Of a stretch of 54,367 nucleotides of DNA, positions 1,275 to 41,013 are shown piece after piece. How positions within the stretch are numbered: the stretch's first letter is position 1; every line of letters starts with the position of its first letter. Position numbers and translations under genes: made by a program. Source of the stretch: an uncultured Lachnospiraceae bacterium (lineage in GTDB: Bacteria; Bacillota; Clostridia; Lachnospirales; Lachnospiraceae); NCBI GenBank assembly GCA_948470755.1, contig CAOKPU010000013.1, positions 1 to 54,367 on the forward strand, in the 5' to 3' direction. The notes below the pieces were generated by a model, which had not been told where the DNA came from, made no database searches, and saw only the letters and a list, made by a program, of their open reading frames with translations.

Positions 1275-2142
1275 ATGCAATTGCTGGAATCATATGATGA
1301 ATATGCGGATATGATCAAAGAATTTAGGGAAAAATGCAGAAGGCCTTTTTCCAACATCTATTTTATGCCGGCTGATATGGAACGGTATATCCGGCTGGGA
1401 AGGGCTGGTTATGAAAAGTCGGAAAGCGGAATTATATTGTATTTTGATGAAGAAAGATTTTACAGAGTTTGTTTATGTGTAAATGAAAATGAAAAGTTTA
1501 TGATAGAACGGCAGGATAAAAAGATCCTTGTAAAAAATGTATTCCGAAAGGGGAAAAAGAGGGAGAACCTGCAAAAGGTGGAAAAGAGGCTGGCGGAATT
1601 AGGGTTTGAAAATGAAGGCACATCTGTGAAAGTGAAAGGGGAAGTGGAAAAGATTTTTCAAAGATGCGAGCGGTTGGGCCGGTATGCGGATGCGCTGGAG
1701 CAGAAGGGATACCGGTTTAAAACTGCGGATATTTCCATGATTGGGGAAATCGAACAAATTATATTGGATTCCGGCGTGATCAAGGATTACCAGCTCAATT
1801 ATTTGACAGAGGAAGAGAAGAAGGAGATGGCGGAGAAAGGATGTTATTCTTATATAGTAAACGGTGAGAATCAAATATGCGGCGGCGGTTATTTTTTTAT
1901 AGATGGCGATACGACCATAGGGGTGGGGGGGGGCAATAAAAGAAGAATTTAAGAGGCATGGGCTTGCGCCGGTTTCCGCTTATCATAAACTGAAATGGCT
2001 CAAGGATAATGGTTTTAAGAGGGGGCAGGGATGGATATTGGTTGAAAATAAACCTTCTATTAACTACCATCAAAGCCTGGGATATGAGTTTGTGGATGAG
2101 TATACGGATGAATGGATATTGAAGGGAGAGGAAAAGGAATGA
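1275..2142 (+). pseudogene. Tandem-GNAT-like acyltransferase A, frameshifted at G9 (phase OFF)
   Basis: First of four paralogous GNAT-type acyltransferases (others at 2394, 3271 and 5657). The N-terminal 150 residues are a conserved lead domain; the GNAT fold is C-terminal. The frame from ATG 1275 (RBS GAGAGGG, 7-nt gap) breaks after the nine-G run at 1925-1933 and stops at 1952, removing about the last 60 residues including the acetyl-CoA-binding helix. With eight G the frame would continue as VGGAIKEEFKRHGL, exactly where paralogue B has VAAVVKEEYRLHGL, and would end at TGA 2142, overlapping the ACP start (ATGA). The rest of the reading frame is intact, so this looks like a contingency OFF state rather than decay; an assembly error in the homopolymer is the alternative. 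Role: likely N-acylation of an amino sugar, or acyl transfer from a carrier protein. Confidence 0.7.
1925..1933 (+). repeat. G9 homopolymer tract 1 (GNAT A)
   Basis: Nine consecutive G after GT in the GNAT A gene. Eight restores the frame seen in paralogues B and C; nine gives an early stop. Confidence 0.85.
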
Positions 2143-2366
2143 GAAATAAAGTATTGGAAATATTATACGAGGTGAATCCTAAGATAGCGGATCATTTAAC
2201 GGACAATTTGATTGAAAGCGGAATAATTGATTCTTTTGAAATTGTGAACGTAGTGATGGAGCTGGAGGAGGAACTAAACATAGAAATAGACCCGGAACTG
2301 ATCAGCCCGGATAATTTTGAGAGTGTGGATGCCATTGTCCGTTTGATGGAAAGGCTTTCCGAATAA
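2139..2366 (+). CDS. Acyl carrier protein 1
   Basis: Seventy-five-residue acidic four-helix carrier protein. The phosphopantetheine attachment site is Ser32 in GIIDSFEIV, the usual DSxxxV pattern. ATG 2139 overlaps the TGA of the in-frame version of acyltransferase A (ATGA), so translation would be coupled when A is ON. A longer in-frame reading from 2112 lies inside the upstream gene and is not needed. It probably carries an amino-acyl or acyl group activated by the adenylation enzyme at 4156 and delivered by one of the flanking GNAT enzymes. Confidence 0.85.
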   Translation: MRNKVLEILYEVNPKIADHLTDNLIESGIIDSFEIVNVVMELEEELNIEIDPELISPDNFESVDAIVRLMERLSE

Positions 2367-2393
2367 CCCGGAAAGTAAATAGGAGTGTTTTAT

Positions 2394-3251: not shown

Positions 3252-3270
3252 ACCGTTAAGGGGTATTTGA

Positions 3271-4128: not shown

Positions 4129-4155
4129 GAAATAGATTAAGCAGGAGGAAAGGGT

Positions 4156-8992: not shown

Positions 8993-10528
8993 ATGGAAAA
9001 ATCAATAAAAGAGAGAATGCTCCAATTGCTGACAACCCTGCAGGAGGCGCATCAGGAAATAGAACATGTACTTTCGGAAAAAGAATATGAGGCAGTGGGC
9101 AATCTTTTGGAAGACTGTCAAAACGGCGCTATATTAATAGGAAATACGATAGAACGGTTTGAGGAAAAACAAGAACATATTATAGGGATATTGGAAGAAT
9201 ATTGTGAAACCTTGTTCCGTATCAACATGGCGCTGGAAGGACAAGGATTATTAGACGGCAGTAAAGTAAAATCAGAACTCGACCAGTATATCCAAGATGT
9301 GTCAAGCCGGATAAAAGATATAAAAGTTTTGAAAATTGTTTTTTTCCCATATAAGGCCTCTATGTGGACAAGTCTCGAAAGCATTTGGAGGGCGGCGGAA
9401 AAAGATAGGGAATGTGAAGTAAAAGTAGTTGTAATACCATATTATACGTTGGATGAAGCAGGAAATGAAGATGAGTTCAAGTATGAGGCGGAGTTGTTCC
9501 CTGAGGATGTGCCAATCGTGCATTACAGAGAATATTCTGTAGAACAGGAATTGCCTGATATGGTTTTTATTCATAATCCTTATGATGGAAGAAACAATGT
9601 AACCCGTATACCTAAAGAATATTATTCCTATCGCCTTAAACTTTTTACAAAGCAATTGATTTATAGCCCATATTGTCTGCAAGGGTATTATTCCCCAAAA
9701 GATGGGAATTTCTTATGCCTGACAAACGGGGCTCATATAGCAGATAAAGTCCTTCTGCAGTCAGAGCGGTTAAGGCAGATTTATATAGATCATCGTATAA
9801 ATGAAGAAAAACTGCTCGCTTTGGGATCTCCCAAAGTGGATAGTATTGTTGATGGAATGAGGAAACCTGCACAGTATCCTGCCGGTTGGTCGGAAAAGCT
9901 GGCCGGCCGGAAAGTGTTTTTGCTTAATACGCATTTATTCTATTTTATCATAGGTGATGATTATCAAAAGGGCCATCCCGGCAGTTCCAATTATGCACAG
10001 CGATATCATGAACAAATATTTCAGTACTTGTTGGGCAAAGAGGGATGTGCATTGATCTGGAGGCCGCATCCTCTTCTGAAGGCGGCATTGAAGAGCAGAG
10101 GTTTATATGCTTCCTTGGAGTTTGTGGAGAAATGGGAACAGCGGGTCAGGGAGTCGGAAAATGGAGTGATAGATGAAAATGGGGAATATAATACTTCATT
10201 TATATTGTCAGATGCGCTTATTACCACACATAGTACGATGATTGCTGATTATATGATTACGGGTAAACCTATTTATATATGGGAAAATTACCTTAATGAA
10301 GAAAATTGTAAAAATTCCCCTGTAGATTACAGACATAATTATTTTAAAGGAGAGTCCGGAAAAGGAAAAACGTTTTACGACTTTGTGCAAATGGTTTTGG
10401 AAGGGGAAGATCCGTTATATGATGGACGGATGCAGGATGTACGCAATGCTTTTGATAATTTAGAGGGTACAATAGGACAGAATATATATGATTATTTGAA
10501 GGGAAATTTTGGGGGTAAAGATTTGTGA
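8993..10528 (+). CDS. CDP-glycerol glycerophosphotransferase-like GT-B protein
   Basis: A 511-residue soluble protein with a coiled-coil-prone N-terminus (about 1-110) followed by a GT-B-like fold. The C-terminal half has LIWRPHPLLKAA and SDALITTHSTMIADYMITGKPI, the pattern of the CDP-glycerol:polyol glycerophosphotransferase family. There is no membrane anchor or signal peptide. In a flagellin-glycosylation island it may transfer a phospho-polyol or sugar in the cytoplasm, perhaps to the glycan or flagellin. Its stop overlaps the next start by 4 nt (GTGA). Confidence 0.65.
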   Translation: MEKSIKERMLQLLTTLQEAHQEIEHVLSEKEYEAVGNLLEDCQNGAILIGNTIERFEEKQEHIIGILEEYCETLFRINMALEGQGLLDGSKVKSELDQYIQDVSSRIKDIKVLKIVFFPYKASMWTSLESIWRAAEKDRECEVKVVVIPYYTLDEAGNEDEFKYEAELFPEDVPIVHYREYSVEQELPDMVFIHNPYDGRNNVTRIPKEYYSYRLKLFTKQLIYSPYCLQGYYSPKDGNFLCLTNGAHIADKVLLQSERLRQIYIDHRINEEKLLALGSPKVDSIVDGMRKPAQYPAGWSEKLAGRKVFLLNTHLFYFIIGDDYQKGHPGSSNYAQRYHEQIFQYLLGKEGCALIWRPHPLLKAALKSRGLYASLEFVEKWEQRVRESENGVIDENGEYNTSFILSDALITTHSTMIADYMITGKPIYIWENYLNEENCKNSPVDYRHNYFKGESGKGKTFYDFVQMVLEGEDPLYDGRMQDVRNAFDNLEGTIGQNIYDYLKGNFGGKDL

Positions 10529-12567
10529 AGATATTAATGATTACACATAAAGACGGACATAATGTTTCGTTATCAAAAATAGCAGATGCTTTTTTAAGGA
10601 AAGGGCATGAGGTTATCATTTATGCACCATTTTACGCTGAGAATGTGCTGCGTTTTTTTAATAAGGAGATACCGCGCTTTCCGGTTAGTTATTTGACCGA
10701 AGAATCGGCGAAGGATTGCGATATTATCTTTTTAGCGGCGATTGCAATGTTCCATGTTGTGGAAAGGGATTTGTTGTCTATACATAAGCCTATTATAGTC
10801 CATAATTATTTGACGAATGGAACCATAATGAGCGAAGGGGATTTTTGCTTTGTGCCATCTTTGCCAACAGCGGAGACGGAATATGATAAGTATATGCATT
10901 ATTCCAGAATGGAAATCGGAGAACCCAAATATGACAGTATTAATCAGGATGCAACAGATAGTAAAAAGTTTCTTTTTATTGATAGCGGGCATTATCCTTT
11001 TGGGAGGGAAGCAAAAAGAGAACTGGCAAAAACGTTATTGAATATTTGTAAAGCTTTTCCGGATTATGAATTATGGATCAAGCCAAGGTTTTTACCGGAG
11101 GATGAGATCATAACTCATAGAAATGATTTTCATCTTTATGATGTTATAAGGAAAGAGGCGGATGGGGAAGTTCCCGGTAATCTTATCATGCTTACGGAGC
11201 ATAGGGATTTGATGGAGTTAATTGCACAGAGTAAGACGGTTCTTTGTATGTATACAACGGCATTTTCCGGCACTTATGTATTGGATAAAGGATTGCTTGT
11301 TTTAGACGGCCTTCCAAGTGAAGATGTATATGATGTCAGAATGAAGGTATTCAATCGCGTGAAAAGGATTATGATGGATTCAGGAGCGGTTATTCATTAT
11401 AGCAAGGTGAATGAATTCTTACCGGAAGGGGTTAAGTGTTCGTCGGATTATTTCAGGTATTTATTGGCGGAGCGGGAGAATACGGCGGATAAGATATGTG
11501 AAGCAACAGAATATTTGTTTGATAATTTTTATCAAAAACAGATTTTTCCTAAGGTATGCGAATGCTCCTATCAGGATTACCGGCAAATTCTTCAGGAAGA
11601 TAGGCATATGACTTGGGAGGAGATAATCAGCAACAGATATGAAAATTTCCTGATTCAGCAAATGCTGGAATTAATAGATTATAATATCAATGCTTCTTTG
11701 GACATTTCTTATATAACAGATCAGATCAACAGGATCCGTAAAAATGGTTTCCTTACGGACAGGGCTTTTAAACAGATGCGCGAAGATATAGGACGGAACA
11801 GGAATCTGTGTATTGTTGGAAATAAAGATCTTTTACTAAAGGATGATATTGACAGCGGGGCGCTATTGGTTGCTTATTATGAGCTGAAGCAATATGATGA
11901 GATAATTCATTTTCCCAAACAGGATATTGGCGCGTTCCATTTTTTCCGGGGATATGTTGCATATGAGCAAGAGGAAAATGAGCTTGCCCTCCGGGAGCTT
12001 GAGGAATATATGCAGTATTCATTAGGAAGAGAGTATGCAAAAGAAGTATCCGACATGCAATATAACCGTTTTGAGGCATTTTATATAATAATAAGGCTTT
12101 TATCGGAAAAAGGCGAGGAAGAAAAAGCGAAATTTTATTTAAAAGAAATGAAAAGCTATTACGCGAATATTTATTCTTATTTACAGGATAAAGAAGTTAT
12201 TGTAAACACGTTTCAGGGAGTGCATTATACATATATACATTGGGCGGAAGGAGCCATAAATCATTGTGCATTCAAAGAGGAAGGGTTTGCCGGCCGGCCC
12301 ATATTGGTTTATGGGGCCGGAGTCATTAGTAAAAGAATCCTATTGAAGAATCCATTGCTGAGAGACAGGATTACCGCCTTTGTAGACAGATATTCTAATC
12401 TGCAGGATTTGGAGGGGATTCCAATTGTAAGGCCTGATCAAATTAAGAGTTATGGAACTGAGAATATCATCATCATAGCGGTTCCGCATCAGGTGAAGAA
12501 TATTAAGGCGGATTTATTAAAAATACGCAATGATATGCAAATAATATCGGTGAATGATTTGTTTTAA
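10525..12567 (+). CDS. GT-B-like / TPR-like / Rossmann three-part protein, copy 1
   Basis: A 680-residue protein with a GTG start overlapping the previous stop. N-terminal ~330 residues: GT-B-like, starting MKILMITHKDGHNVSLSKIADAF and containing LWIKPRFLP and CMYTTAFSGTYVLDKGLLVLD, similar in layout to the preceding CDP-glycerol-like protein. Middle: helical repeats (FHFFRGYVAYEQEENELALRELEEYM, TPR-like). C-terminal ~100 residues: a Rossmann domain with VYGAGVISKRIL and AFVDR. The paralogue at 12595 has the same architecture. It is likely a cytoplasmic glycan transferase; the C-terminal domain may bind a nucleotide or act in assembly. The exact reaction is unknown. Confidence 0.6.
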   Translation: MKILMITHKDGHNVSLSKIADAFLRKGHEVIIYAPFYAENVLRFFNKEIPRFPVSYLTEESAKDCDIIFLAAIAMFHVVERDLLSIHKPIIVHNYLTNGTIMSEGDFCFVPSLPTAETEYDKYMHYSRMEIGEPKYDSINQDATDSKKFLFIDSGHYPFGREAKRELAKTLLNICKAFPDYELWIKPRFLPEDEIITHRNDFHLYDVIRKEADGEVPGNLIMLTEHRDLMELIAQSKTVLCMYTTAFSGTYVLDKGLLVLDGLPSEDVYDVRMKVFNRVKRIMMDSGAVIHYSKVNEFLPEGVKCSSDYFRYLLAERENTADKICEATEYLFDNFYQKQIFPKVCECSYQDYRQILQEDRHMTWEEIISNRYENFLIQQMLELIDYNINASLDISYITDQINRIRKNGFLTDRAFKQMREDIGRNRNLCIVGNKDLLLKDDIDSGALLVAYYELKQYDEIIHFPKQDIGAFHFFRGYVAYEQEENELALRELEEYMQYSLGREYAKEVSDMQYNRFEAFYIIIRLLSEKGEEEKAKFYLKEMKSYYANIYSYLQDKEVIVNTFQGVHYTYIHWAEGAINHCAFKEEGFAGRPILVYGAGVISKRILLKNPLLRDRITAFVDRYSNLQDLEGIPIVRPDQIKSYGTENIIIIAVPHQVKNIKADLLKIRNDMQIISVNDLF

Positions 12568-12594: not shown

Positions 12595-14626
12595 ATGAAA
12601 ATATTTATGATAACCCAAAAGGACGGGCCTAATATCTCTCTTGCCAAAATAGCGGATGCTTTTTTGCGCAAGGGCCATGAGATTACTATTTACGCACCGT
12701 TTTATGCAGAGAATGTTTTAAAGTTTTTTAATAAAAAGATTCCCCGTTTTCCTATAGGGGATTTGACGGAGTCGGTAGTTCTTGGCTGTGATTTGCTTTT
12801 TGCGTCTTCTACATCAGTGATGTTTTTAGGGGAAAGAAATATTTTATCTGTCAAAAGGCCAATTATCATGCATAATTATTTAGTCAACGGAGCTGTATCA
12901 GGGGGGGGGTGATTTCTGTTTTGTCCCTTCGCTTCCAACGACAGAGACGGATTACGATAAATATATGACTTTTTCCAGAATGGGGATTGGGGAGCCGAAA
13001 TACGATAGCATGATGCAAAAAGATGCAGATTATAAGAGATTTCTGTTTATCGACAGCGGGCATTATCCTTTTGGGCTGGAAGGAAAAAGGGAGCTGGCGA
13101 AAACGATATTAAATATTTGCAGGTCTTTCCCTGATTACGAGCTTTGGATAAAACCGAGATTTTTGCCAGGGGATGAAGTGATCACTCATAAAAATGATTT
13201 GAATATTTATGATGTTATAAGGGAGGAAGCGCAAGGGGAGATTCCACAAAACCTGGTTATGCTTATGGAACATAAAGACTTAATGGATCTGATTGAACAA
13301 TGCTGTACGGTTTTGTGTATGTATACCACTGCTTTTTCAGGGGCTTATGTAGCGGGTAAAGGATTGGTGGTTTTAGATAATATACCAAGTGAAGATGTGT
13401 ATGATGTCAGAAGAAAAGTTTTTGACCGTGTCAGGGAAATTATGTTAGGGTCAGGGGCGGTTATTGATTATAAAAGGGTAAATGAAGTTTTGCCTAATGG
13501 GATAAAGTGTACGGATGATTATTTTCAGTATTTATTATCGGAAAAGGAAAATACGGCGGATAAAATATGCGAAGTGACAGAATATTTATTTGATAATTTT
13601 TATAGTAAACAGCTTTTTCCCAAAATACATGATTGCGATTACAGAGACTATAAAGAGAATATCCGGGTTGATGACGAAATGACTTGGGAAAAGATCATTG
13701 GCAATAGATATGGCGATGTACTGCTGAAAAATATGATTGCCGGGATATATTATAACATAAATGCAACGTTAGACATTACCATAATAACTGACTGTTTGAA
13801 AGAAGGAAGGGAAATGGGGATTACGGAGGCCTTTTTTAAACAGATGCGCGGAAGGGAAAATGAATACAGGGATAAATGTATTGTGCAGAATAGGGATGTC
13901 CTTTTAGAAAATGAGATCGACAGCGGCGTTTTGCTGCAGACTTATTATGTAAGTAAGCAATACGATGAAATTATTAATTTCCCGAGACAGGATATAGGGG
14001 CGTTTCATTTATTCAGAGGTTATGTCGCTTATGAGCAAGGGAAGAGGCAATGTGCGGCCGCAGAGTTTGAAAAATATTTACAATTGTCATTGGACAGGGC
14101 ATATATCAAAGAAGTATCCGATATGCCCGGTTATCAATTTTCCGCTTTGTACCTGTTGATCCAATCATTAGCAGAGGAAAGTGAAATGGAAAAGGCAAAT
14201 GATTATCTGGAAAAAATAAAGGATCTTTATAGCAGGAATTATGGTAAAAGGGATGGGTTTATTGACCGTATACAAGGGGTGCGTTATACATATGTGCATT
14301 GGGCCCAAGGTGCAGTGGATAATTATTCTACACAAAAAGAAGAATTTTTAAAGCAACCGATAGTGGTTTATGGGGCGGGAGTGGTCAGCAAAGAAATTAT
14401 TTTGAAGAACAAATGGATGACGGACAGGATAGTAGCTTTTATAGATAAATTTTCCGGTGTAGAAGATTTAGATGGTATTCCTGTTTTGCCATTTAATGCA
14501 TTAAAAGATTTTGAGAGTGGGTTTTTAATTGTGATAGCGGTTCCCCATCAAGTGAGCAATATAAAAAAGGATATATTAAAAGTGCGAAATGATATGAAAA
14601 TAGTGTCAATAAATGATTTATTTTAA
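12595..14626 (+). pseudogene. GT-B-like / TPR-like / Rossmann protein, copy 2, frameshifted at G9 (phase OFF)
   Basis: Paralogue of the 10525 gene. The start MKIFMITQKDGPNISLAKIADAF matches copy 1 closely. The frame stops at 12912, after 105 residues, because of a nine-G run at 12901-12909. A second frame carries the remaining 553 residues intact to 14626 (LWIKPRFLPG, CMYTTAFSGAYVAGKGLVVLD, VYGAGVVSKEII). Eight G would read VSGGGDFCFVPSLP, aligning with MSEGDFCFVPSLP in copy 1. The downstream part has no other lesion, so this is best read as an OFF contingency gene; a homopolymer sequencing error is the alternative. Confidence 0.7.
12901..12909 (+). repeat. G9 homopolymer tract 2 (GT-B copy 2)
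   Basis: Nine G after TCA at residue 103 of the copy 2 gene. Nine gives an immediate TGA; eight restores the paralogue's frame. Confidence 0.85.
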
Positions 14627-14680
14627 AGCCAGCCTTAATGTAGGCATACAAAATATTTTAACTTTGGAGTGGAGAACAAG

Positions 14681-19138: not shown

Positions 19139-20215
19139 ATGAACGATAATCAATTGGATATTTTTTTGGCAGATGTTTCTATTTCTGCTGTGGAGGCTAT
19201 GAAAAAAATTGATGAGAATGCCAGAGGGATATTATTTGTTGTTGATAAAGAAAGACGTTTGATTGGGAGCCTGACGGATGGCGATATTAGGAGATGGCTA
19301 ATAAAAACAGGGGAGTTATCTGCTAAAGTGCATAAATTTATGAATCTGAATCCCCAATATTTATGCTCATGCGATATGGAAGAAGCGGAGCATTATATGA
19401 AAGAACAGCAGATAAGGGCATTGCCAATACTTGATTTGGAGATGAGAGTCAGCGAGATTATATTTGATAGGAATTCCACATTAAATATAATAGACAAGAA
19501 AAAAGAAATTATGAGCCATACGCCGGTAGTTATCATGGCGGGGGGCAAAGGAAGCAGATTGTATCCATATACAAAAATCTTACCGAAACCATTAATACCG
19601 GTTGGGGATATACCTATTGTGGAGAGGATTATTAACCGCTTTTGCGAATGGGGGGCCTCGAAGTATTATTTGACGGTAAACTATAAAAAAAGCATGATTA
19701 AATCATATTTTACAGAACTGAAGCCTTCTTATAGTATCCATTATATAGAAGAGGAAAAACCTCTTGGAACGGCGGGAGGCATTAAACTGATCGATGAAAA
19801 GTTTGAGATGCCGTTTATTGTGACGAATTGTGATATCTTAATCGATGCGGATTATAACAGCATAATGGTTTATCACGAGGAGGCGGGAAATGATTTAACA
19901 ATTGTTTCAGCCTTGAAGAATATGGTAGTCCCTTATGGGGTATTGCACGCAAAAGAGAATGGGATTGTGACATTTATCGAAGAAAAACCAAGATTGTCTT
20001 ATTTTGTAAATACAGGAATGTATATTTTAAATCCGGATTGCATAGAAAAAATCCCGGATGATACCTTCTTTCACATGACGGACCTTGTTGAAACATTGAT
20101 GGCGGAGGGGAAAAAAGTGGGGATGTACCCCGTAAGCGAAAATGCTTTTTTGGATATGGGAGAATTTGAAGAGATGCGGAGAATGGAAAAAAGCCTTAAC
20201 ATGAAATCGGAGTAA
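19139..20215 (+). CDS. ptmE: CBS-domain sugar nucleotidyltransferase (PtmE-like, GDP-glucosamine synthesis)
   Basis: A 358-residue fusion of two N-terminal CBS motifs (residues ~5-118) with a nucleotidyltransferase domain starting VVIMAGGKGSRLYPYTK and PKPLIPVGDIPIVERII. This architecture matches Campylobacter PtmE, which makes GDP-glucosamine as the first committed donor of the legionaminic acid pathway. The CBS pair may sense adenine nucleotides. Placement ahead of legH/legI/legG genes supports the assignment. Confidence 0.82.
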   Translation: MNDNQLDIFLADVSISAVEAMKKIDENARGILFVVDKERRLIGSLTDGDIRRWLIKTGELSAKVHKFMNLNPQYLCSCDMEEAEHYMKEQQIRALPILDLEMRVSEIIFDRNSTLNIIDKKKEIMSHTPVVIMAGGKGSRLYPYTKILPKPLIPVGDIPIVERIINRFCEWGASKYYLTVNYKKSMIKSYFTELKPSYSIHYIEEEKPLGTAGGIKLIDEKFEMPFIVTNCDILIDADYNSIMVYHEEAGNDLTIVSALKNMVVPYGVLHAKENGIVTFIEEKPRLSYFVNTGMYILNPDCIEKIPDDTFFHMTDLVETLMAEGKKVGMYPVSENAFLDMGEFEEMRRMEKSLNMKSE

Positions 20216-20221
20216 GATCTT

Positions 20222-20863
20222 ATGGAAAAAATCTTGATAATTGGGAATGGCGGACATGCGAAAAGCTTGATGGACGCTATAGAACAAGAAGAAAGATATA
20301 GGATATCAGGATTAGTAGTCAATGATGAAAAAGAGGGAAGTTTGGGATATCCAATTATAGGAAAAGATGAAAATCTGGAGGAAATATATAAAGATGGCAT
20401 AGAGTATGCAGCAATGGGAATTGGATATTTAGGTAGATCGGTTCTGAGAGAGGAAATTTATAAAAAACTAAAAAGTATCGGATTTAAATTTCCTGTTATT
20501 TGCGATCCGTCGGCTATTATTTCAGAGCATATCCATATAGGGGAAGGATCCTTTATTGGCAAGGGAGCTATTGTCAATGCGGATGTTTCGATTGGGAAGA
20601 TGTGCATTATAAACAGCGGCTCAATTATTGAACATGATTGTAAAATCTTTGATTATTCCCATATATCGGTTGGCAGTATCTTATGTGGAGGGGTGAATGT
20701 GGGTAGGGCATCATTTGTCGGGGCGAATGCAACAGTAATCCAGATGACAAAAATCGGGGAAAATTGTATGATCGGTGCGGGAACTGTTATATGTAAAGAT
20801 GTGGAGGATGGCAGTATGGTTTATGGCGGAAAAACGACCCTGGTGGGGGGGGGTAAAATATGA
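20222..20863 (+). CDS. PglD/NeuD-family N-acetyltransferase (LegH-like)
   Basis: A 213-residue left-handed β-helix acetyltransferase: Rossmann N-domain IIGNGGHAKSLMDAIEQ, then hexapeptide repeats (AIISEHIHIGEGSFIGKGAIVNADVSIG), with the catalytic-histidine region IIEHDCKI. This is the PglD/NeuD/LegH family, which acetylates the 4-amino group of an NDP-sugar. The extreme C-terminus carries a nine-G run: with nine G it ends LVGGGKI at 20863, with eight it would end ten residues later (VKYDIKGDAA) and overlap the next ATG. The core fold is intact in either case. Confidence 0.8.
   Translation: MEKILIIGNGGHAKSLMDAIEQEERYRISGLVVNDEKEGSLGYPIIGKDENLEEIYKDGIEYAAMGIGYLGRSVLREEIYKKLKSIGFKFPVICDPSAIISEHIHIGEGSFIGKGAIVNADVSIGKMCIINSGSIIEHDCKIFDYSHISVGSILCGGVNVGRASFVGANATVIQMTKIGENCMIGAGTVICKDVEDGSMVYGGKTTLVGGGKI
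20845..20853 (+). repeat. G9 homopolymer tract 3 (LegH-like C-terminus)
   Basis: Nine G straddling the last codons of the acetyltransferase. Nine: stop at 20861-20863, 18 nt before the next gene. Eight: stop TGA overlaps the next ATG (ATGA, 20882-20885). Ten: immediate TAA. Confidence 0.85.
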
Positions 20864-20881
20864 TATAAAGGGGGATGCTGC

Positions 20882-21775: not shown

Positions 21776-22766
21776 AGTATCAATAATTGCGGAGGCAGGC
21801 GTTAATCATAATGGAAGCATTGTTCTTGCAAAGGAGATGGTAGTCCGGGCGAAGGAAGCAGGGGCGGATTATATTAAGTTTCAGACGTTTGTGCCAGGGA
21901 ATCTCGTATCGAAATATGCTTCAAAGGCGGAATATCAGAAGAAAAATACAGGAGAAAAACAAACGCAGCTTCAAATGTTGGAAAAGCTGGCTTTGTCGAA
22001 AGAAGATTTTGTCGAATTGCAGGCTTATTGCCGGAAAGTGGGTATCGGTTTTGCTTCCACGCCATTTGATGCTGAAAGTATTGATTTCCTTAAAACAATG
22101 CATATGGATTTTTGGAAGGTGCCTTCCGGCGAAATAACCAATCTTCCTTATTTGGAGAAAATTGGAAGAATACAGGAAAAAGTGGTTTTGTCAACAGGAA
22201 TGTGCGAAATAAATGAAATAGGAAATGCGATTGCTGTTTTGGAAGATAATGGGGCGAAAGAAATTGTGGTTTTGCACTGTAATACGGAATATCCTACTGC
22301 ATATGAGGATGCAAACCTTCTGGCGATGGTTCAAATGAAACAGATTTTTGATAAACCGGTGGGCTATTCCGACCATACGTTGGGAATTGAGGTACCGGTA
22401 GCAGCAGTAGCGCTTGGGGCATCGGTGATAGAAAAGCATTTTACGCTGGATAGATCAATGGAGGGGCCCGATCATAAAGCAAGCCTTGAAGTAAAGCAAT
22501 TAAAAGAGATGGTCGAGGCAATCCGTAATGTGGAAGCAAGCTTAGGTGACGGATGCAAGAAAAGAACAGAATCAGAGAAGAAAAATGTTTTTGTAGCACG
22601 GAAAAGTATAGTGGCGAAATGCGATATTAAAGAGGGCGAAAAATTAAGCGAAGATAATATCACAGTGAAGAGACCGGGAAACGGGGTCAGCCCGATGTTG
22701 TGGCATGAGGTTCTTGGTACGTCTGCAATCCGTAATTTTAAGGAGGATGAGCTGATAGAATTATGA
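21768..22766 (+). CDS. legI: N,N'-diacetyllegionaminate synthase (NeuB/LegI family)
   Basis: A 332-residue nonulosonate synthase that condenses a 6-carbon sugar with phosphoenolpyruvate. Barrel motifs IIAEAGVNHNGS, YIKFQTF, KVPSGEITNLPYLE, LHCNTEYPT, GYSDHTLG and GPDHKASLE; a C-terminal SAF (antifreeze-like) domain from about residue 270 (ARKSIVAKCDIKEGEKL). The neighbouring PtmE- and NeuC-type genes favour legionaminate over sialate or pseudaminate. Overlaps legG by 4 nt (ATGA). Confidence 0.88.
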   Translation: MNRVSIIAEAGVNHNGSIVLAKEMVVRAKEAGADYIKFQTFVPGNLVSKYASKAEYQKKNTGEKQTQLQMLEKLALSKEDFVELQAYCRKVGIGFASTPFDAESIDFLKTMHMDFWKVPSGEITNLPYLEKIGRIQEKVVLSTGMCEINEIGNAIAVLEDNGAKEIVVLHCNTEYPTAYEDANLLAMVQMKQIFDKPVGYSDHTLGIEVPVAAVALGASVIEKHFTLDRSMEGPDHKASLEVKQLKEMVEAIRNVEASLGDGCKKRTESEKKNVFVARKSIVAKCDIKEGEKLSEDNITVKRPGNGVSPMLWHEVLGTSAIRNFKEDELIEL

Positions 22767-23935
22767 AAAAGACGATAACGGTTTTAACCGCAACACGGGC
22801 GGAATATGGCCTGTTAAAGCCAATTGTTGAAGCAATACGGGAATGCGATGAGTTCTGTGTAAAAATAGTAGTGACAGGAGCGCATTTATCGCCGGAATTT
22901 GGGTTGACCTATAAAGAAATAGAAAAAGATGGATTTCAGATTGACAGGAAGATAGAAATTCTATTAAGTTCGGATAGCCCCGTTTCTATCTCTAAAAGTA
23001 TGGGATTGGCATTAATTAGTTTTTCGGAATACTTTGAGGAAAACAGGCCTGATGCGTTGGCGGTTTTAGGGGATCGTTACGAGACTTTGGCAGTATGCAT
23101 TGCGGCGATGAACGCCAGGGTGCCGATCCTTCATTTTTATGGGGGAGAAACTACGGAAGGGGCGGTGGATGAGGCAATCAGACATTCCATTACCAAAATG
23201 AGTTATCTGCATTTTACAAGTACCGAGCAGTATCGGAAGAGAGTCATCCAATTGGGAGAGTCTCCTGACAGGGTATTTGCAGTAGGGGGAATAGGGGTAG
23301 AAAACGCGTTAAGCCTGCCAATACTTTCAAAGGAAGAGTTGGAAGAAAACTTATGCTTTTCTCTGGACAGCCCCTATGCTATAGTAACATTCCATCCGGT
23401 TACATTGGAAGATGGGGAGGCGGAAAAACAATGCCGGGAATTATTGAATGCATTGGATATGCATAAGGAGCTGAGATATATTTTTACAATGGCCAATGCT
23501 GATGCGGAGGGAAGGATAATCAATATTATGATAAAAGAATACGTATCTTCCCATAGTAATGCAATTGTGTTTGATTCTCTTGGAACGCTTCGCTATATGA
23601 GCGCATTGAAGTATGCGGCGATGGTAATCGGCAATTCATCCAGCGGCCTGCTTGAGGTTCCGTCATTTCATATACCCACAATCAATATAGGGGACCGCCA
23701 GAAAGGACGATTGCAGGCAGAAAGCGTAATTACTTGTGAACCGGTTTGTGAAGAAATAAGCAAAGCGATAGACAAAGCAAGGTCATATGATTTTTTAAAA
23801 CTTGCGGCTTCAGCCCGCAATCCCTATGGTGACGGCAATACATCCAAAAGGATTGCCGGCATTCTAAGAAAGGCGTTTATGAAAGATGATTTTAATTTGA
23901 AAAAAAAGTTTTTTGATGTTGGTTTTGAATTATAA
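22763..23935 (+). CDS. legG: Hydrolysing NDP-sugar 2-epimerase (NeuC/LegG family)
   Basis: A 390-residue GT-B-fold epimerase: TATRAEYGLLKPIVEAI at the start, LGDRYETLA, FYGGETTEGAVDEAIRHSITK, FHPVTLED, and GNSSSGLLEVPSFHIP near the end. It hydrolyses the nucleotide and inverts C2 to give the mannose-configured substrate for LegI. Full length and translationally coupled to legI. Confidence 0.88.
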   Translation: MKKTITVLTATRAEYGLLKPIVEAIRECDEFCVKIVVTGAHLSPEFGLTYKEIEKDGFQIDRKIEILLSSDSPVSISKSMGLALISFSEYFEENRPDALAVLGDRYETLAVCIAAMNARVPILHFYGGETTEGAVDEAIRHSITKMSYLHFTSTEQYRKRVIQLGESPDRVFAVGGIGVENALSLPILSKEELEENLCFSLDSPYAIVTFHPVTLEDGEAEKQCRELLNALDMHKELRYIFTMANADAEGRIINIMIKEYVSSHSNAIVFDSLGTLRYMSALKYAAMVIGNSSSGLLEVPSFHIPTINIGDRQKGRLQAESVITCEPVCEEISKAIDKARSYDFLKLAASARNPYGDGNTSKRIAGILRKAFMKDDFNLKKKFFDVGFEL

Positions 23936-23968
23936 AGGGAAGATAGGACTTTGGATAGGAGAAAAAAA

Positions 23969-25270
23969 ATGAGTAAGAGCGACGAATATGGAAAAAAAGC
24001 ACACTTATTGATTCCGGCCGGAGCGCACACGTACAGCAGGACGGATGAAGTATTTCCAGGCAATGCCCCCAGAATAATTGAGCGGAGCAAAGGCGTTTAT
24101 ACGTGGGATGTAGATGGGAACCAATATATTGATTATGCGATGGCATGCAGGTCCGTGACAATTGGATACGATTATGACCGAATCTCGAAAGCGGCAATAG
24201 AGCAGATACATAATGGAAATACGGCAAGCAAAGCATCAAAAATAGAAGTTGAAGCAGCCGAAGCAATGTGCAGTTTATTTCCATGGGTTGATATGGTGAA
24301 ATTTGCTAAAAATGGATCGACTGTTACGTCTGCGGCAACGAAACTGGCGAGAGCATATACGGGAAAGAAATATATTGCACGCTGTAAAGAGCATTCGTTT
24401 TTTTCTTATGATGATTGGTTTATAGGCAGCACTGTTATGAACGCGGGTATTCCAAAAGAAATCCAGGACTTAACTTTACAATTCAGCTTTAACGATATTG
24501 ATTCCGTAAAGGATTTATTTGAGCAATATAAAGGCGAGATTGCCGCATTGATCATGGAACCATGTGATACGGAAGAACCGGTGGATAATTTCCTCCAAAA
24601 GGTAAGGGGGCTTTGCACGGAATATGGAGTGGTATATATTCTTGATGAGATGATAACGGGATTCCGCTGGGATTTGCAAGGGGCATGCAAATATTATGGA
24701 GTGGAACCTGATTTGGTAACGTTTGGAAAGGGCATGGCAAATGGGTTTTCCGTTGCTGCATTAGGCGGTAAACGTGAAATCATGGATATGGGAGGACTTA
24801 CTCCGGGAAAGGAGAGGGTTTTTCTTATTTCTACTACGCATGGCGCGGAGATGAGTAGTTTAGGGGCATTAATAGAAACGATCAATGTATATAAAGAACT
24901 GGATGTGACAAAGCACATTTGGGAGATGGGGACAAAATTAGTTGACGGATTAAATGAAATTGCAGAAGAATATTCGTTACAAGATTATTTTTATATAGAA
25001 GGGGCTAACTGCTCTCCTAATTTTGTAGTATGTGGTAAAGACAAAATGCCTTCTTTAGAGCATAGGACGGTATTTTGCCAGGAACTATTAAAGAATGGGA
25101 TTTTGCTCCCTTATATTGCGATTGCGTATGAACATACGGAAAAGGAAATCGATGCGGCATTGGAGGCATCGAGAAAGGCTATGAAGGCATACTGCGATTC
25201 GCTTAATGGGGATGTCAATGAGTTTATTTCCGGAAATGTGATCAAACCAGTGTTTAGAAAGTACAATTAA
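23969..25270 (+). CDS. Class III aminotransferase (glutamate-1-semialdehyde aminomutase-like)
   Basis: A 433-residue fold-I PLP enzyme, start MSKSDEYGKKAHLLIPAGAHTYSR, with RSVTIGYD, KNGSTVTSAATKLARAYTGK, ILDEMITGFRW and PLP lysine in VTFGKGMANGF. ATG 23969 has AGGAG 7 nt upstream; the upstream TTG 23951 is not needed. No DegT/DnrJ-type LegC aminotransferase is in the window, so this enzyme may install the C4 amino group of legionaminic acid, or aminate another intermediate. It is not likely hemL, as no haem genes flank it. Confidence 0.75.
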   Translation: MSKSDEYGKKAHLLIPAGAHTYSRTDEVFPGNAPRIIERSKGVYTWDVDGNQYIDYAMACRSVTIGYDYDRISKAAIEQIHNGNTASKASKIEVEAAEAMCSLFPWVDMVKFAKNGSTVTSAATKLARAYTGKKYIARCKEHSFFSYDDWFIGSTVMNAGIPKEIQDLTLQFSFNDIDSVKDLFEQYKGEIAALIMEPCDTEEPVDNFLQKVRGLCTEYGVVYILDEMITGFRWDLQGACKYYGVEPDLVTFGKGMANGFSVAALGGKREIMDMGGLTPGKERVFLISTTHGAEMSSLGALIETINVYKELDVTKHIWEMGTKLVDGLNEIAEEYSLQDYFYIEGANCSPNFVVCGKDKMPSLEHRTVFCQELLKNGILLPYIAIAYEHTEKEIDAALEASRKAMKAYCDSLNGDVNEFISGNVIKPVFRKYN

Positions 25271-25305
25271 AAACAGGTTAAAAAGCGGCGGTGAAAGGAG
25301 AAAAA

Positions 25306-26031
25306 ATGAATAAACATGCGGAAGAGTATATTGTAGGACAGTTAGAGAGGACTTATAGGAGTACAGAGGTTTTTGTGAAATGGCTGGAGGGTAAAGGTTT
25401 ATTGAATGATGATAAGAATCTTAAAATATTGGATATGGCTGCGGGGGGGGGTGGAAATGTACTATATATGGCCAACCGGCATAAAAACATCCAGTTTATT
25501 GGAATGGACATAAGCAAAGAATTCGTGGAATTTGGAAATGAAGTATTGGCAAAGCGTTCCAGATTTGATAATTGCAGTCTGCTTGAGGGGGATTGGTTTC
25601 ATATAGACCCTAAATGGATAGGGGCATTTGACGGGATAGTCAGTTTTCAGTCGCTGCTTATGTTTCCGGATTATGAAGAGGCTTTGGGAAAGCTGATCGA
25701 ATTACAGCCGGAGTGGATTGCGCTTACGTCTTTGTTTTATGAAGGGAATATAGAATATACGAATAAATTCAGGAACTATTATAGGCCTTCCGGTGGTAAG
25801 GATTATACAGAATGTTATTATAATATTCATTCTACGATACGTTTCAGAAAGTATATGGAAGAATGCGGATATCCGAATGTTGATTTTATGCCGTTCGAGA
25901 TCGATATTGATTTGCCGAAGAGGGACGATATGGATATTGGAACATATACGGTAAAAACAGTAGACGGGAATAGGATACAGATTTCAGCCGGCATGATGAT
26001 GCCGTGGTATTTCGTTGTCGCTCATAAGTGA
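25306..26031 (+). CDS. SAM-dependent methyltransferase, phase-variable (ON)
   Basis: A 241-residue class I methyltransferase. Motif I is LDMAAGGGGNVLYMANR, followed by FIGMDIS and GIVSFQSLLMFPDYEEAL. The glycine-rich SAM loop itself is encoded by the nine-G run at 25443-25451, which is in frame. A change of one G would stop the protein near residue 50. AAAGGAG lies 6 nt before ATG 25306. Likely methylates a sugar or acyl substituent. Confidence 0.75.
   Translation: MNKHAEEYIVGQLERTYRSTEVFVKWLEGKGLLNDDKNLKILDMAAGGGGNVLYMANRHKNIQFIGMDISKEFVEFGNEVLAKRSRFDNCSLLEGDWFHIDPKWIGAFDGIVSFQSLLMFPDYEEALGKLIELQPEWIALTSLFYEGNIEYTNKFRNYYRPSGGKDYTECYYNIHSTIRFRKYMEECGYPNVDFMPFEIDIDLPKRDDMDIGTYTVKTVDGNRIQISAGMMMPWYFVVAHK
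25443..25451 (+). repeat. G9 homopolymer tract 4 (methyltransferase motif I)
   Basis: Nine G encoding the SAM-binding glycines after LDMAA. In frame at nine. Confidence 0.85.
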
Positions 26032-26393: not shown

Positions 26394-27122
26394 ATGTATA
26401 AACAGTATTGTATTCTTGCTATAGTTACCGCAAGAGGTGGTTCTAAAGGCCTTCCGGGTAAAAATATAAAAATGTTGAATGGAAAGCCTCTTATAGGATG
26501 GACGTTGGAACAGTTGAAATGCAGCAAGTATGTTGACGAGGTATTTGTTTCAACTGATAGTGAGGAAATAGCCGAGGTCAGCAGGCAATGCGGTTTTAAA
26601 GTGCCATCTTTGCGTCCGGCATATCTGGCAGAGGATACAACTTCATCAATGGATGTGCTGCTTTATACGATCCAACTGTTAGAAGGACAGGGGAAAACAT
26701 TCGATTATATATTGCTGCTGGAACCGACGTCTCCATTAAGAAAAAGAAATGATATAGATGAAATGATAAAGCTGGCAGGGGATCATCCTGAAAATGACGG
26801 GGTAATATCGGTTGGGGAGATTCATGGGGAACATCCTGCGATTATAAAAAGAATAGATGAAAAAGGAAATGTTGTCCCATATATTGAGAGTGAAAAGGGT
26901 ATATATCAAAGGCAGCAGTTTGATAAAGCTTATTTCCCATATGGAGTGGGGTATTTGATAAAAATTGCAAGATTTAAAGAGGCACATAGTATTTACACCG
27001 ATAACATGCTGCCGTATTATATTGAAAGATGGCAGAATTATGAAATAGACGATATATATGATTTTGCATGTATTGAGAGTATCATGAGAATGGAGAGCAA
27101 AAAAATATGGGAAAATATTTAA
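26394..27122 (+). CDS. legF: CMP-legionaminate synthetase (NeuA/LegF family)
   Basis: A 242-residue CMP-nonulosonate cytidylyltransferase: IVTARGGSKGLPGKNIKMLNGKPLIGW, LLLEPTSPLRKRND, and YEIDDIYDFACIE. This is closer to NeuA/LegF/PtmB than the shorter enzyme at 14681. It follows the hairpin element and starts the second half of the island. Its end overlaps the next gene by 16 nt. Confidence 0.85.
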   Translation: MYKQYCILAIVTARGGSKGLPGKNIKMLNGKPLIGWTLEQLKCSKYVDEVFVSTDSEEIAEVSRQCGFKVPSLRPAYLAEDTTSSMDVLLYTIQLLEGQGKTFDYILLLEPTSPLRKRNDIDEMIKLAGDHPENDGVISVGEIHGEHPAIIKRIDEKGNVVPYIESEKGIYQRQQFDKAYFPYGVGYLIKIARFKEAHSIYTDNMLPYYIERWQNYEIDDIYDFACIESIMRMESKKIWENI

Positions 27123-28897: not shown

Positions 28898-29860
28898 ATG
28901 AGCGGTTTACATATTGTTATGTATCATTATACAAGAGATTTAAAACATGGCAGATATCCGAGGATAAAAGGATTGGATTATGAACTGTTTCGGCAGCAGA
29001 TTCATTTTCTAAAAGAGCAGTTTAACATAATATCAATGGAAGAGGCGATCGAGGCGGCGGATGGGAGCTATGATTTGCCGGAAAATGCGCTGCTCCTTAC
29101 TTTTGATGATGGATATGTGGACAATTATACTTGTGTGCTGCCAATATTGGAAGAGGCTAAAGTGCAAGGCTCTTTTTTCATCCCGGGAAAAACTTTTACT
29201 ACCCATCAACTTTTAGATGTAAATAAAATTCATTTTATTCTTGCCAGCGCTGATATCAATAAATTTCTGAACGATGTATTTGAGCGGATGGATTTTTATC
29301 GTGGGGGGGGGTATAATTATCCATCAAATCAGGAATTATTTTCAGAATTGGCGAAGGAGGATAGATTTGATTCTAAGGAAATTGTTTTTATTAAAAAGGT
29401 CTTACAGACAGCGCTGCCGGAAATAGTCAGAAACCGTATTTCGAGCGATTTGTTTGAAAAGTATGTCGGCGTTACGGAAGAACAATTGGCATATGAGCTG
29501 TATATGACGGAAGATCAGATTCGTTTGATGAAGCGGCATGGAATGTTTATTGGTATCCATGGATATGATCATTACTGGTTAGGGAATCTTTTGCCGGGGC
29601 AGATGAGAGAGGATATTACCAGAGCCTTAGAGGTAATGGATGAGTTTATAGATAGGAAACGCTGGGTTATGAATTATCCATATGGAAATTACAATGAAGA
29701 TGTGCTTTCATTTATTGAAAAAAAGGGCGCCTGCTTAGGATTGACGACAAAAGTAGCAGTGGCGGATTTAAAAAAGGACAATAAATTAGAACTGCCCAGA
29801 TTGGATTGTAATGATTTTCCCCCTAAAAGCGAAGGCTATAAGAGGATGAATATAAGATAG
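28898..29860 (+). CDS. Polysaccharide deacetylase (NodB-like), phase-variable (ON)
   Basis: A 320-residue carbohydrate esterase family 4 domain without signal peptide or membrane segment, so probably cytoplasmic. Motif 1 TFDDG (Asp70, Asp71), motif 2 HGYDH (His221, His225), motif 3 MNYPYGNYNE. An unusual insert at about residues 105-200 separates motifs 1 and 2; the nine-G tract (29303-29311, encoding RGGGY) is within it and is in frame. It may remove N-acyl groups from a sugar before re-acylation by the GNAT enzymes. Confidence 0.75.
   Translation: MSGLHIVMYHYTRDLKHGRYPRIKGLDYELFRQQIHFLKEQFNIISMEEAIEAADGSYDLPENALLLTFDDGYVDNYTCVLPILEEAKVQGSFFIPGKTFTTHQLLDVNKIHFILASADINKFLNDVFERMDFYRGGGYNYPSNQELFSELAKEDRFDSKEIVFIKKVLQTALPEIVRNRISSDLFEKYVGVTEEQLAYELYMTEDQIRLMKRHGMFIGIHGYDHYWLGNLLPGQMREDITRALEVMDEFIDRKRWVMNYPYGNYNEDVLSFIEKKGACLGLTTKVAVADLKKDNKLELPRLDCNDFPPKSEGYKRMNIR
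29303..29311 (+). repeat. G9 homopolymer tract 5 (deacetylase)
   Basis: Nine G encoding three glycines near residue 137 of the deacetylase. In frame at nine; one more or fewer would remove catalytic motifs 2 and 3. Confidence 0.85.
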
Positions 29861-37786: not shown

Positions 37787-37827
37787 ATATTATTGTCTGG
37801 GAATAGATATGATAAGGGGGTGGGGGT

Positions 37828-38817: not shown

Positions 38818-38872
38818 TAGGATATAACGGATGTAAGTGAACGGTATATGAACGAGGAGAAGAAGAGAGAGA

Positions 38873-39853
38873 ATGAAAAAAGTGTTAGTAACTGGAGCGG
38901 ATGGTTTTATCGGCAGCCATTTGACAGAGTGTTTATTGGAAAAAGGGTATGAAGTCAAAGCTTTTGTTTTTTATAATTCGTTCAATTCGTGGGGATGGTT
39001 GGATTCCTTACCGCAAGAGAAATTAAGTCAGATTGAAATATTTGCAGGGGATATCAGAGATCCTAATGGCGTGAAAGAAGCGATGAAGGATGTGGATGGA
39101 GTTTTTCATCTGGCGGCTCTGATCGCAATCCCCTTCAGTTACCATTCACCAGATTCTTATGTGGATACCAATATTAAAGGGACATTGAATGTTTTACAGG
39201 CAGCAAGGGCAGAAAAAGCAGAGAGGGTAATCATTACTTCTACTTCCGAAGTATATGGGACGGCAGAATATGTCCCGATTGATGAAAAACACCCATTTCA
39301 AGGCCAATCTCCATATTCGGCGACGAAAATTGGGGCAGACAGGCTTGCAGAGAGTTTTTACAGAAGTTTTGACCTTCCTGTGTCTATTGTAAGGCCGTTT
39401 AATACTTATGGGCCAAGACAGTCAGCAAGGGCCGTGATACCTACAATTATTACACAGCTATTGGCAGGGAAAAAAGAGATTAAATTAGGATCGTTAACTC
39501 CGACCAGGGATTTTAATTATGTGAAGGACACAGCCGCCGGTTTTGTTGCAGTGGCGGAGTCAATACATACGATTGGGCAAGAGATAAATATTGCAACCCA
39601 GCAAGAAATTTCGATTGGGGATTTGGCAAAGGAGATTATTTCACAGATTAATCCAAATGCAGAGATCATATGCGATGAACAGAGAATCCGGCCTTTGAAC
39701 AGTGAAGTAAACAGGCTTTTAGGTTCTAATGAAAAAATCAGGAAAATGACTGATTGGAGGCCGCAATATACTTTTAGGCAGGGAATTGCTGAAACTATAG
39801 GCTGGATACAAAATAATATGCATTTATATAAAGCAGATATTTATAATTTGTAA
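38873..39853 (+). CDS. legB: NDP-sugar 4,6-dehydratase (LegB family)
   Basis: A 326-residue extended SDR: VLVTGADGFIGSHLTECLLEKG, FVFYNSFNSWGWLDSLP (a stretch I recognise from LegB-type enzymes), TSTSEVYGTA, catalytic PYSATK, and RPFNTYGPRQSARAVIPTI. It makes the 4-keto-6-deoxy intermediate that starts legionaminic acid synthesis from an NDP-GlcNAc. It is unusually far (about 16 kb) from legI and legG, at the distal end of the island. Confidence 0.82.
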   Translation: MKKVLVTGADGFIGSHLTECLLEKGYEVKAFVFYNSFNSWGWLDSLPQEKLSQIEIFAGDIRDPNGVKEAMKDVDGVFHLAALIAIPFSYHSPDSYVDTNIKGTLNVLQAARAEKAERVIITSTSEVYGTAEYVPIDEKHPFQGQSPYSATKIGADRLAESFYRSFDLPVSIVRPFNTYGPRQSARAVIPTIITQLLAGKKEIKLGSLTPTRDFNYVKDTAAGFVAVAESIHTIGQEINIATQQEISIGDLAKEIISQINPNAEIICDEQRIRPLNSEVNRLLGSNEKIRKMTDWRPQYTFRQGIAETIGWIQNNMHLYKADIYNL

Positions 39854-39909
39854 AATATCTTTTTGTATGCCTATCTGGAAAGATGATATTTATGATAAAG
39901 GAAGAATAT

Positions 39910-41013
39910 ATGAAAAAGGTCGTTATTTATGGCGTAAAGAACAGTGAGTTGCGGAAAGACATTGAATTTTTCCTGGACGATAATTATAAAATAGTTGGTT
40001 ATTCCGATACTTATTTTATGTCTAGCGGGATAGATGGGATGCCCTTTATTCCTCCTTGTCAGCTTTGTCATTGGGAGTTTGATTATATTCTGTTGGCGGC
40101 TCAACAAAAGGCGGCCAGAATGGAAATCCGGCAGAGTTTATTGTCATATGGAATCCCGATAGAAAAAGTAATAGAACCTATGATACTGTTACGGAAAAAC
40201 GCTGAGAAATGTACGTTGGATCTGATAGAGGATATCCGTTGCCATTACCGGGGGGAATGCGGGCTTATTTTTGGCCTATCGTATTCCCGCAAAGGTATTT
40301 GTAAGAAAGAGCTGAAAATGCCTTTTTATGACTGCTCACTGCCAGGGCTGGATTTGTATTATAATCTCCGCGTATATACATATATGGTTGAGAAAGGGCT
40401 TCTTGCCAATCTTAAATTGGTATTGTTCGTATTTCCATATAATTATTTTGTCTACGATATGTCAAAATCATTTGCACAATATGAAAGCGGACAGATTTTC
40501 GCTATACGGCAGCTAAATGATTGGCATCATTATGAACAGGTTGAAGGTGCAAAAGATTATGTGGAAAGCTATAGAATGTTCGGCAAAAAAATTGCCAGAC
40601 AATATTGTTCATGCTGGTATGATGTAGAAAGCCCATATCCATATAGGGATAATGGTAGAAAAATGCCGTTGGAAAACCTTTGGTTTGCTGAATATGAGGA
40701 AACGGCTATAGAGAATGAAATGTTATTTTCAGAATTTTGCTTAAAATTAAAGCGGGGGGGGGTAAATCCTGTTTTGGTAATTCCTCCGGTCTATTTAGAA
40801 GGAATCGATCAAGCATCGTACAATGCATTTCTTGAGAAAAAGGAGCATTTTTATCATGTCGTCCATAAAACTGAAAAAAAAGCCGGAAAACTCAAAGTTT
40901 TTGATTACGCAGACCGATTTGCCAATCAGCCGGATTTTTTTCGTGACCTCACACATTTAAACACAATGGGCAGGGAGAAATTTACTAACCTGATCAACAC
41001 AGAGATTTTATAA
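39910..41013 (+). CDS. Rossmann-SGNH hydrolase/acyltransferase-like protein, phase-variable (ON)
   Basis: A 367-residue protein. The N-terminal ~100 residues resemble the small Rossmann module (KKVVIYGVKNSELRKDIEFFL, IVGYSD). The C-terminal SGNH-like part has GLSYSRKGI (nucleophile-Ser block) and DLTHLNTMGREKF (Asp-x2-His block). It may esterify or de-esterify a sugar hydroxyl. A nine-G tract at 40754-40762 (KRGGVNP, residue ~283) is in frame; a change by one would remove the catalytic Asp/His. ATG 39910 with AAGGAAG is chosen over upstream 39883/39892. It is the last gene of the plus-strand island. Confidence 0.62.
   Translation: MKKVVIYGVKNSELRKDIEFFLDDNYKIVGYSDTYFMSSGIDGMPFIPPCQLCHWEFDYILLAAQQKAARMEIRQSLLSYGIPIEKVIEPMILLRKNAEKCTLDLIEDIRCHYRGECGLIFGLSYSRKGICKKELKMPFYDCSLPGLDLYYNLRVYTYMVEKGLLANLKLVLFVFPYNYFVYDMSKSFAQYESGQIFAIRQLNDWHHYEQVEGAKDYVESYRMFGKKIARQYCSCWYDVESPYPYRDNGRKMPLENLWFAEYEETAIENEMLFSEFCLKLKRGGVNPVLVIPPVYLEGIDQASYNAFLEKKEHFYHVVHKTEKKAGKLKVFDYADRFANQPDFFRDLTHLNTMGREKFTNLINTEIL
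40754..40762 (+). repeat. G9 homopolymer tract 6 (SGNH-like gene)
   Basis: Nine G after AAGC in the C-terminal half of the SGNH-like gene. In frame at nine. Confidence 0.85.

Follow-up and report, generated by a model that had tools for sequence, protein, structure and literature searches.

Poly-G tracts are known from flagellar glycosylation genes of Campylobacter jejuni such as Cj1295 (PMC3068675), and strain NCTC11168 of that species holds 29 poly-G or poly-C loci of seven or more bases (PMC4965091). Orsi et al. (2010) described homopolymeric tracts as a general prokaryotic regulatory mechanism and had Clostridia among the surveyed groups (PMC2831843). For Clostridioides difficile, a 2025 review covers invertible promoters and a phase-variable signal transducer, and its retrieved passages do not contain the term "Lachnospir" (PMC11868660). 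What is said of these sources here and below concerns the retrieved part of each text. Here we describe six runs of nine G (G9) in contig CAOKPU010000013.1 of an uncultured Lachnospiraceae bacterium of the genus Kineothrix (GCA_948470755.1, a 3.01-Mb draft genome, G000 below). The contig was analysed over its entire length of 54,367 nucleotides (the window). The six runs are very likely slipped-strand contingency loci that would vary a legionaminic-acid-type flagellin glycan in a combinatorial way, and they would form the densest part of a genome-wide Kineothrix set.

Runs of nine G in the window and the genome

In a homopolymer count, G9 runs start at positions 1925, 12901, 20845, 25443, 29303 and 40754 and always lie on the coding strand, and the window has no other G run longer than six, just as the original prediction had reported. 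The tally comprises 47 runs of five and 11 of six, none of seven or eight, the six of nine and none longer, while C runs reach a maximum length of five. Dinucleotide shuffles gave a mean of 1.59 G9 matches and at least six in 2 of 100 cases; this null is lenient, so by that measure the number of runs alone is merely moderately unusual. When the proteins were kept fixed and codons were redrawn from the usage of the island, in which GGG makes up 306 of 884 glycine codons, none of 2000 redraws reached six runs of at least nine G (mean 0.83). Six runs were likewise reached in 0 of 60 Markov chains at each of the orders 1, 2, 3 and 5. The missing intermediate lengths are a further departure: the codon redraw expects 3.1 runs of length seven or eight, and the nulls in general about 3 to 10 (1.5 for the order-5 chain). 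Repeat tracts, as expected of contingency loci, are present in coding regions of the window beyond chance.

Over the whole genome, lengths 7, 8, 9 and 10 are represented by 50, 2, 14 and 1 runs, which places a second mode at nine and leaves 17 runs of at least eight G. Six of these 17 fall inside 1.8% of the genome (binomial probability 4e-7, for a window picked after the fact). Since eleven more (eight G9, two G8 and one G10) lie elsewhere, the set is genome-wide with a dense cluster in the window. The claim that G9 runs are absent outside the island thus holds within the window and fails for the genome, the set being wider than the island.

We applied a single frame rule to the 17 runs of at least eight G and to 42 G7 runs from 40 fetched regions. 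Among the former, six interrupt a gene, five are continuous, three lack a coding frame, and one each is near a 3' end, near a 5' end or too near the end of its locus. No G7 run interrupts a gene; 31 are continuous, seven are near a 5' end and four near a 3' end. Interrupted and continuous cases therefore stand at 6:5 versus 0:31 (Fisher p=9e-5). The two groups also differ in the base that follows, which is T after 15 of 17 runs of at least eight G and A after 47 of 50 G7 runs. A stop triplet directly follows nine of the longer runs (TAA six times, TGA twice, TAG once), and such a stop would make one off state tight.

Tract genes of the window and their reading frames

Frame analysis bore out the prediction that, at nine G, two tract genes are out of frame, three are in frame and one sits at a stop codon. 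The run at 1925-1933 breaks a GNAT-type acetyltransferase gene (1254..2142, + strand): its 232-residue open reading frame (ORF) terminates at 1952, and the downstream homology extends over the start of a small acyl carrier protein (ACP)-like ORF at 2112-2366. The GNAT label is assigned by paralogy, as the neighbouring genes at 2385-3251 (60% amino acid identity) and 3271-4128 (47%) match PF00583; both paralogs are without a tract. The run at 12901-12909 splits an unclassified gene, possibly a transferase (12595..14626, +), into ORFs at 12595-12912 and 12965-14626. Its tandem paralog (10525..12567, +) is intact, shares 60% amino acid identity with both pieces and lacks a G run where the tract would be.

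In the gene for a NeuD/LegH-type sugar acetyltransferase (20222..20863, +; TIGR03570, E=9e-63; PglD_N, Hexapep) the run at 20845-20853 is followed by two codons and then a stop, and the next gene begins at 20882. The three genes that stay in frame encode an S-adenosylmethionine (SAM) methyltransferase (25291..26031, +; PF13847), in which the run at 25443-25451 encodes part of the glycine-rich stretch DMAAGGGGNV, a polysaccharide deacetylase (28898..29860, +; PF01522; run at 29303-29311) and a possible SGNH/DltD-like protein (39883..41013, +; run at 40754-40762). The last has a weak N-terminal Pfam match below the cut-off and none in NCBIfam; we spotted by eye what we take to be DxxH- and GxSxS-like motifs, and the label is unconfirmed. 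Of the six different enzyme types originally proposed, the GNAT, NeuD/LegH-like, methyltransferase and deacetylase assignments stand, and the SGNH and GT-B-like ones are unconfirmed; for the latter, searches with the intact paralog of the split gene yielded nothing in Pfam or NCBIfam and nothing convincing in the PDB. In silico, tract length would set the frame of these genes, with just the last residues changing at 20845.

Both out-of-frame genes have an intact, run-free paralog nearby at 60% amino acid identity (the GNAT gene at 2385 and the gene at 10525-12567). Downstream of the run, the GNAT gene retains 62% amino acid identity over 65 codons, with mismatch rates at the three codon positions of 0.32/0.23/0.51. 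For the possible-transferase gene the corresponding values are 61% over 571 codons and 0.29/0.20/0.50, next to 0.33/0.15/0.59 upstream of the run. These patterns are typical of coding sequence and suggest that constraint is kept past both runs. A tract-bearing MBOAT gene, out of frame both here and in the relative G013, has a weaker pattern downstream (41% identity, 0.52/0.35/0.70) than upstream (58%, 0.35/0.23/0.61).

Tracts in other Kineothrix genomes

At least one G9 run is present in 13 of 16 Kineothrix genomes, the window's genome included, and G-run tracts occur in Kineothrix alysoides KNHs209 (G001) too. The name of the K. alysoides record includes "quiver", which we take to be a long-read polisher. 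From the other genomes we sampled part of the runs, omitting G008 and, in G004 and further genomes, some contigs. In eleven of these genomes we classified 93 runs of at least nine G: 15 are interrupted, 19 continuous and 24 near a 5' end, and the remainder comprises 15 without a coding frame, nine near a 3' end and 11 too near an end. Run lengths (n=117 with those of the window's genome, at least eight G, sampled on runs of at least nine) again centre on nine, with nine runs of 8, 80 of 9, 18 of 10, six of 11, two of 13 and one each of 14 and 18. In G013 the longest runs, of 18 and 13 bases, are found 41 and 30 bases away from the ends of contigs.

We compared twelve pairs of similar tracts, ten cross-species and two within one genome, and verified both flanks. 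Seven of the ten cross-species pairs occupy the same site; two of these have lengths of 9 and 10, the other five 9 and 9. The MBOAT gene carries G9 here and G10 in G013 and is out of frame in both, and an acyltransferase gene has G9 in frame here and in G003. G003 and G010 share G9 at a site near a 3' end and at another near a 5' end, the latter shifted in both. A noncoding site has G10 in G006 and G9 in the metagenome-assembled genome S4_Bin4 (G009). Lachnospiraceae bacterium 526-35 (G005) shares with G003 a G9 site 26 codons from the gene end, where homology is found downstream only and one of the two genes is continuous, the other shifted. The two same-genome paralog pairs also share their site and differ in length (13 and 11 in G006, 9 and 10 in G014). 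The pair L215/L227 and both L129/L237 pairs were rejected as same-site cases after both flanks had been checked.

The remaining same-site pair is a G9 run that immediately precedes the start codon of a LytTR response regulator gene, found at L038:6137 (G000:C58) and L231:3001 (G004). Here the run could possibly act as a translational rather than a frame switch.

The one close homolog of the window's deacetylase lies in G014, in a second nonulosonic-acid island where four different genes have G9 or G10 runs in or at them. A methyltransferase gene beside that deacetylase has an interrupting G9; we rejected it as a counterpart of the window gene at 29924-30628, which it matches by position only. 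No close homolog of the transferase-like protein was found in the genus beyond the window's genome. Among 200 Lachnospiraceae genomes, the downstream piece of its split gene matched three and the SGNH-like protein eight, the window's genome included in both counts. No viral contig matched when one tract flank was used as the query.

Gene classes at the tracts

The other tracts of the genome gave ten proteins, among them an MBOAT, a dehydratase, a PMT-type transferase, an acyltransferase, DUF6056 and DUF362 proteins and a response regulator; three of the ten have no Pfam match. In the other Kineothrix genomes 70 of the 93 runs have a tract ORF, and the 25 of 75 families shown are led by Methyltransf_11 (seven ORFs) and Acyl_transf_3 (six), with two each for WcbI, PMT_2, hexapeptide transferases and DUF6056; a solute-binding family was matched by one. 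The G7 control genes (n=41; 25 of 103 families shown) are largely housekeeping, such as tRNA synthetase, MreB and gyrase, and include one GT2 and FlgK; only the AAA and GDSL families have two members. Tract genes include many glycan-modifying enzymes, versus mostly housekeeping genes at G7 runs, and from the family matches the genome-wide Kineothrix tracts would often lie in surface-glycan enzymes.

One cluster elsewhere in the genome (G000:C2:64223-74890, L033) has four G8 or G9 runs in or at genes for the MBOAT, the dehydratase, the PMT-type protein and an unclassified protein, and is perhaps a second switchable glycan locus.

Runs of nine G in the wider Lachnospiraceae

An exact G9 is present in 115 of 200 sampled Lachnospiraceae genera, usually in small numbers, compared with 14 in the window's genome. 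Thirteen of the 200 have at least seven, and in nine of these thirteen the ratio of G9 to G8 is at least 1.5 (14:2 in the window's genome, then 23:14, 20:7, 14:4, 12:2, 9:3, 9:6, 7:2 and 7:0); the other four are without such an excess (9:8, 7:7, 7:11 and 7:12). The genome with 23 exact G9 runs belongs to a separate genus (G122, L319-L337). Of the 20 that were fetched, four interrupt a gene, five are continuous and 11 are not clear-cut. Some of its tracts lie in or before genes for solute-binding proteins and for AraC-type or response regulators, and a GT87, a WcbI and a methyltransferase gene are among the tract genes too. It is close to an even call, and slightly on the doubtful side, whether poly-G slippage serves several genera of the Lachnospiraceae, a major gut commensal family, as genome-wide bet-hedging for flagellar and other surface glycans, in some also for nutrient-binding proteins and regulators, with switchable duplicates beside a constant copy sparing the basic pathway while the glycan varies.

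A probable flagellar glycosylation island

The surroundings of the six runs were proposed to be a flagellar glycosylation island, and legionaminic-type genes were indeed found beside a flagellin gene. Profile matches place nonulosonic (legionaminic-type) acid genes at 19139..25270 (+), namely a CBS-domain nucleotidyltransferase, NeuD, a formyltransferase, NeuB, NeuC and a class-III aminotransferase. The aminotransferase presumably differs from the type usual in the legionaminic pathway. Two cytidylyltransferases (PF02348) are encoded at 26394..27122 (+, CMP-sugar type) and 14669-15337, and a LegB-type 4,6-dehydratase at 38873..39853 (+; TIGR04180, E=5.9e-156, above the cut-off). Alongside these, the island encodes GNATs, methyltransferases, a radical SAM protein, FkbH and ACP-like proteins, AMP-binding enzymes and the deacetylase, and the whole set is positioned upstream of the flagellin and three glycosyltransferases. 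Two of the latter, a Glyco_trans_1_2 protein and a GT2 with TPR, lie at 41060..43848 (- strand; 60% and 66% amino acid identity to G013), and the third, a GT2 enzyme, at 44062..45054 (+; 60%). The flagellin itself (45379..46794, +; PF00669, PF00700) is 61% identical to that of G013, the only relative whose flagellin is close to it, in which flagellin and three glycosyltransferases are adjacent as well (60-66%). For the rest of the island, the stretches of G013 that were fetched gave few matches at E 1e-15. As NeuB, NeuC-type epimerase, LegB dehydratase, cytidylyltransferase and NeuD-type genes all appear near the flagellin, the locus is probably a nonulosonic-acid island of the legionaminic type; the flagellar assignment follows from the adjacent flagellin together with the nonulosonic-acid genes.

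Two other features were seen in the window. The intergenic stretch at 26031-26394 is a mosaic repeat whose pieces are 75-100% identical to many other sites of the genome, and the region directly after the flagellin (46862-52017) encodes a pair reminiscent of defence genes, a macro-domain protein next to one that is SIR2-like plus NB-ARC/AAA.

Discussion

The slipped-strand reading draws support from the length mode at nine, the interruptions compared with G7 runs, the apparent downstream constraint, the sites kept across species, two of seven with unequal lengths, and the gene classes. During replication a run would gain or lose G through slipped-strand mispairing. As the run lies inside a gene, such a change would shift the rest of that gene into or out of frame; at 20845 slippage would alter the last residues instead. 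Each lineage would then carry its own on/off combination of the acetyltransferase, the transferase-like protein, the NeuD-type acetylase, the methyltransferase, the deacetylase and the possibly SGNH-like protein, so that a population would display many flagellin-glycan variants. Slippage, reversible switching, flagellin as the acceptor and any benefit, such as the proposed escape from phage, antibodies or TLR5, are what we infer from this arrangement.

Several observations weigh against it. All six window runs share a single length, nine, and 5 of 7 same-site cross-species pairs are equal in length. The sole contrast in frame state between such pairs (G003 and G005, 26 codons from the gene end) is due to a base beside the run. 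The constraint seen in the paralog comparisons may predate the run. Three of the 15 other Kineothrix genomes (G002, G007 and G015) are without G9, and 15 of the 93 runs classified in eleven others have no evident coding frame. The deacetylase's close homolog in G014 (47-48% amino acid identity) lacks the run, reading RGGGYNYPSNQEL where the window has RGTEFRYPSNQEL. Finally, single tract genes belong to phage capsid, PTS, MCP, spore and peptidase families.

These points have to be set beside four other explanations. If the two interrupted genes were redundant duplicates that became pseudogenes through ordinary frameshifts in G runs, each would be expected to have an intact neighbour, as both do at 60% identity, and a relict in one genome would look alike; yet the downstream frame is open with its codon-position pattern kept, runs of exactly nine are in excess in intact genes too, tract sites are kept in other species and G7 runs cause no interruptions (0 of 42), which makes gene decay quite improbable. 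The modal length of nine and the equal lengths at most shared sites would also suit an action at the RNA level, in which a single DNA length still gives some full-length product because the polymerase slips or the ribosome shifts frame. That lengths vary from 8 to 11 across the genus, that two same-site pairs differ and that some runs lie outside coding sequence speaks against it, and we consider it a slim chance.

Homopolymer errors of sequencing or assembly, with all true genes in frame, are suggested by the long runs of G013 near contig ends and by isolate 526-35, in which contigs C33, C68, C79, C80 and C92 terminate exactly at a G8 or G9 run and 5 of 12 runs in the fetched regions form the final bases of a contig. 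Assemblers struggle at such runs, and these ends are what mixed lengths or problems in sequencing would produce; contig breaks at runs equally fit mixed lengths in culture. Error would not produce the runs themselves, their gene classes or the conserved sites, and we regard it as very unlikely. Least credible, to the point of being negligible, is the idea that functionless runs arose from glycine-rich coding on a G-rich strand. GGG is indeed a common glycine codon and dinucleotide shuffles occasionally reach six runs, but codon resampling never did, the window has no runs of seven or eight, genes are interrupted and the base after the run differs from that after G7.

The flagellins of Lachnospiraceae are prominent among the antigens of the gut and the ligands of TLR5. 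If slippage does vary their glycans at random, the diversity of commensal surfaces at the strain level, the susceptibility of commensals to phage and their recognition by antibodies could be tested directly, through counts of tract length in reads already available. Genes broken at G9 in these genomes call for caution in annotation, as they may be switches and not pseudogenes.

The original prediction knew of no description of such a system for Lachnospiraceae-type flagellin islands, and our literature search agrees in that no paper among the matches listed treats homopolymer phase variation in this family; subscription papers and preprints lay outside the search, and absence is not proven. 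The only paper among the matches listed for "slipped-strand" together with Lachnospiraceae applies phase-variation terms to C. jejuni in its retrieved passages. Work on Clostridium flagellin glycosylation establishes nonulosonic acids in Clostridia, as here, and in the retrieved text its sole "phase vari" passage concerns C. jejuni and "Lachnospir" is absent (PMC13317340). The survey of Orsi et al. shares with our analysis the notion of coding homopolymers as switches and differs in that its retrieved text does not mention "Lachnospir" (PMC2831843). Like the system around Cj1295, the window has homopolymers in nonulosonic-acid-modifying genes of one flagellin glycosylation locus; unlike it, the host belongs to the Lachnospiraceae, the enzymes are others and the locus is known from sequence alone (PMC3068675). 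With C. jejuni NCTC11168 the genome shares G runs throughout that would be able to switch frames, whereas here there are 17 runs of at least eight G in 3.0 Mb and runs of seven act as ordinary coding sequence (PMC4965091). The mechanism is already known; the host group and the wider repertoire are new.

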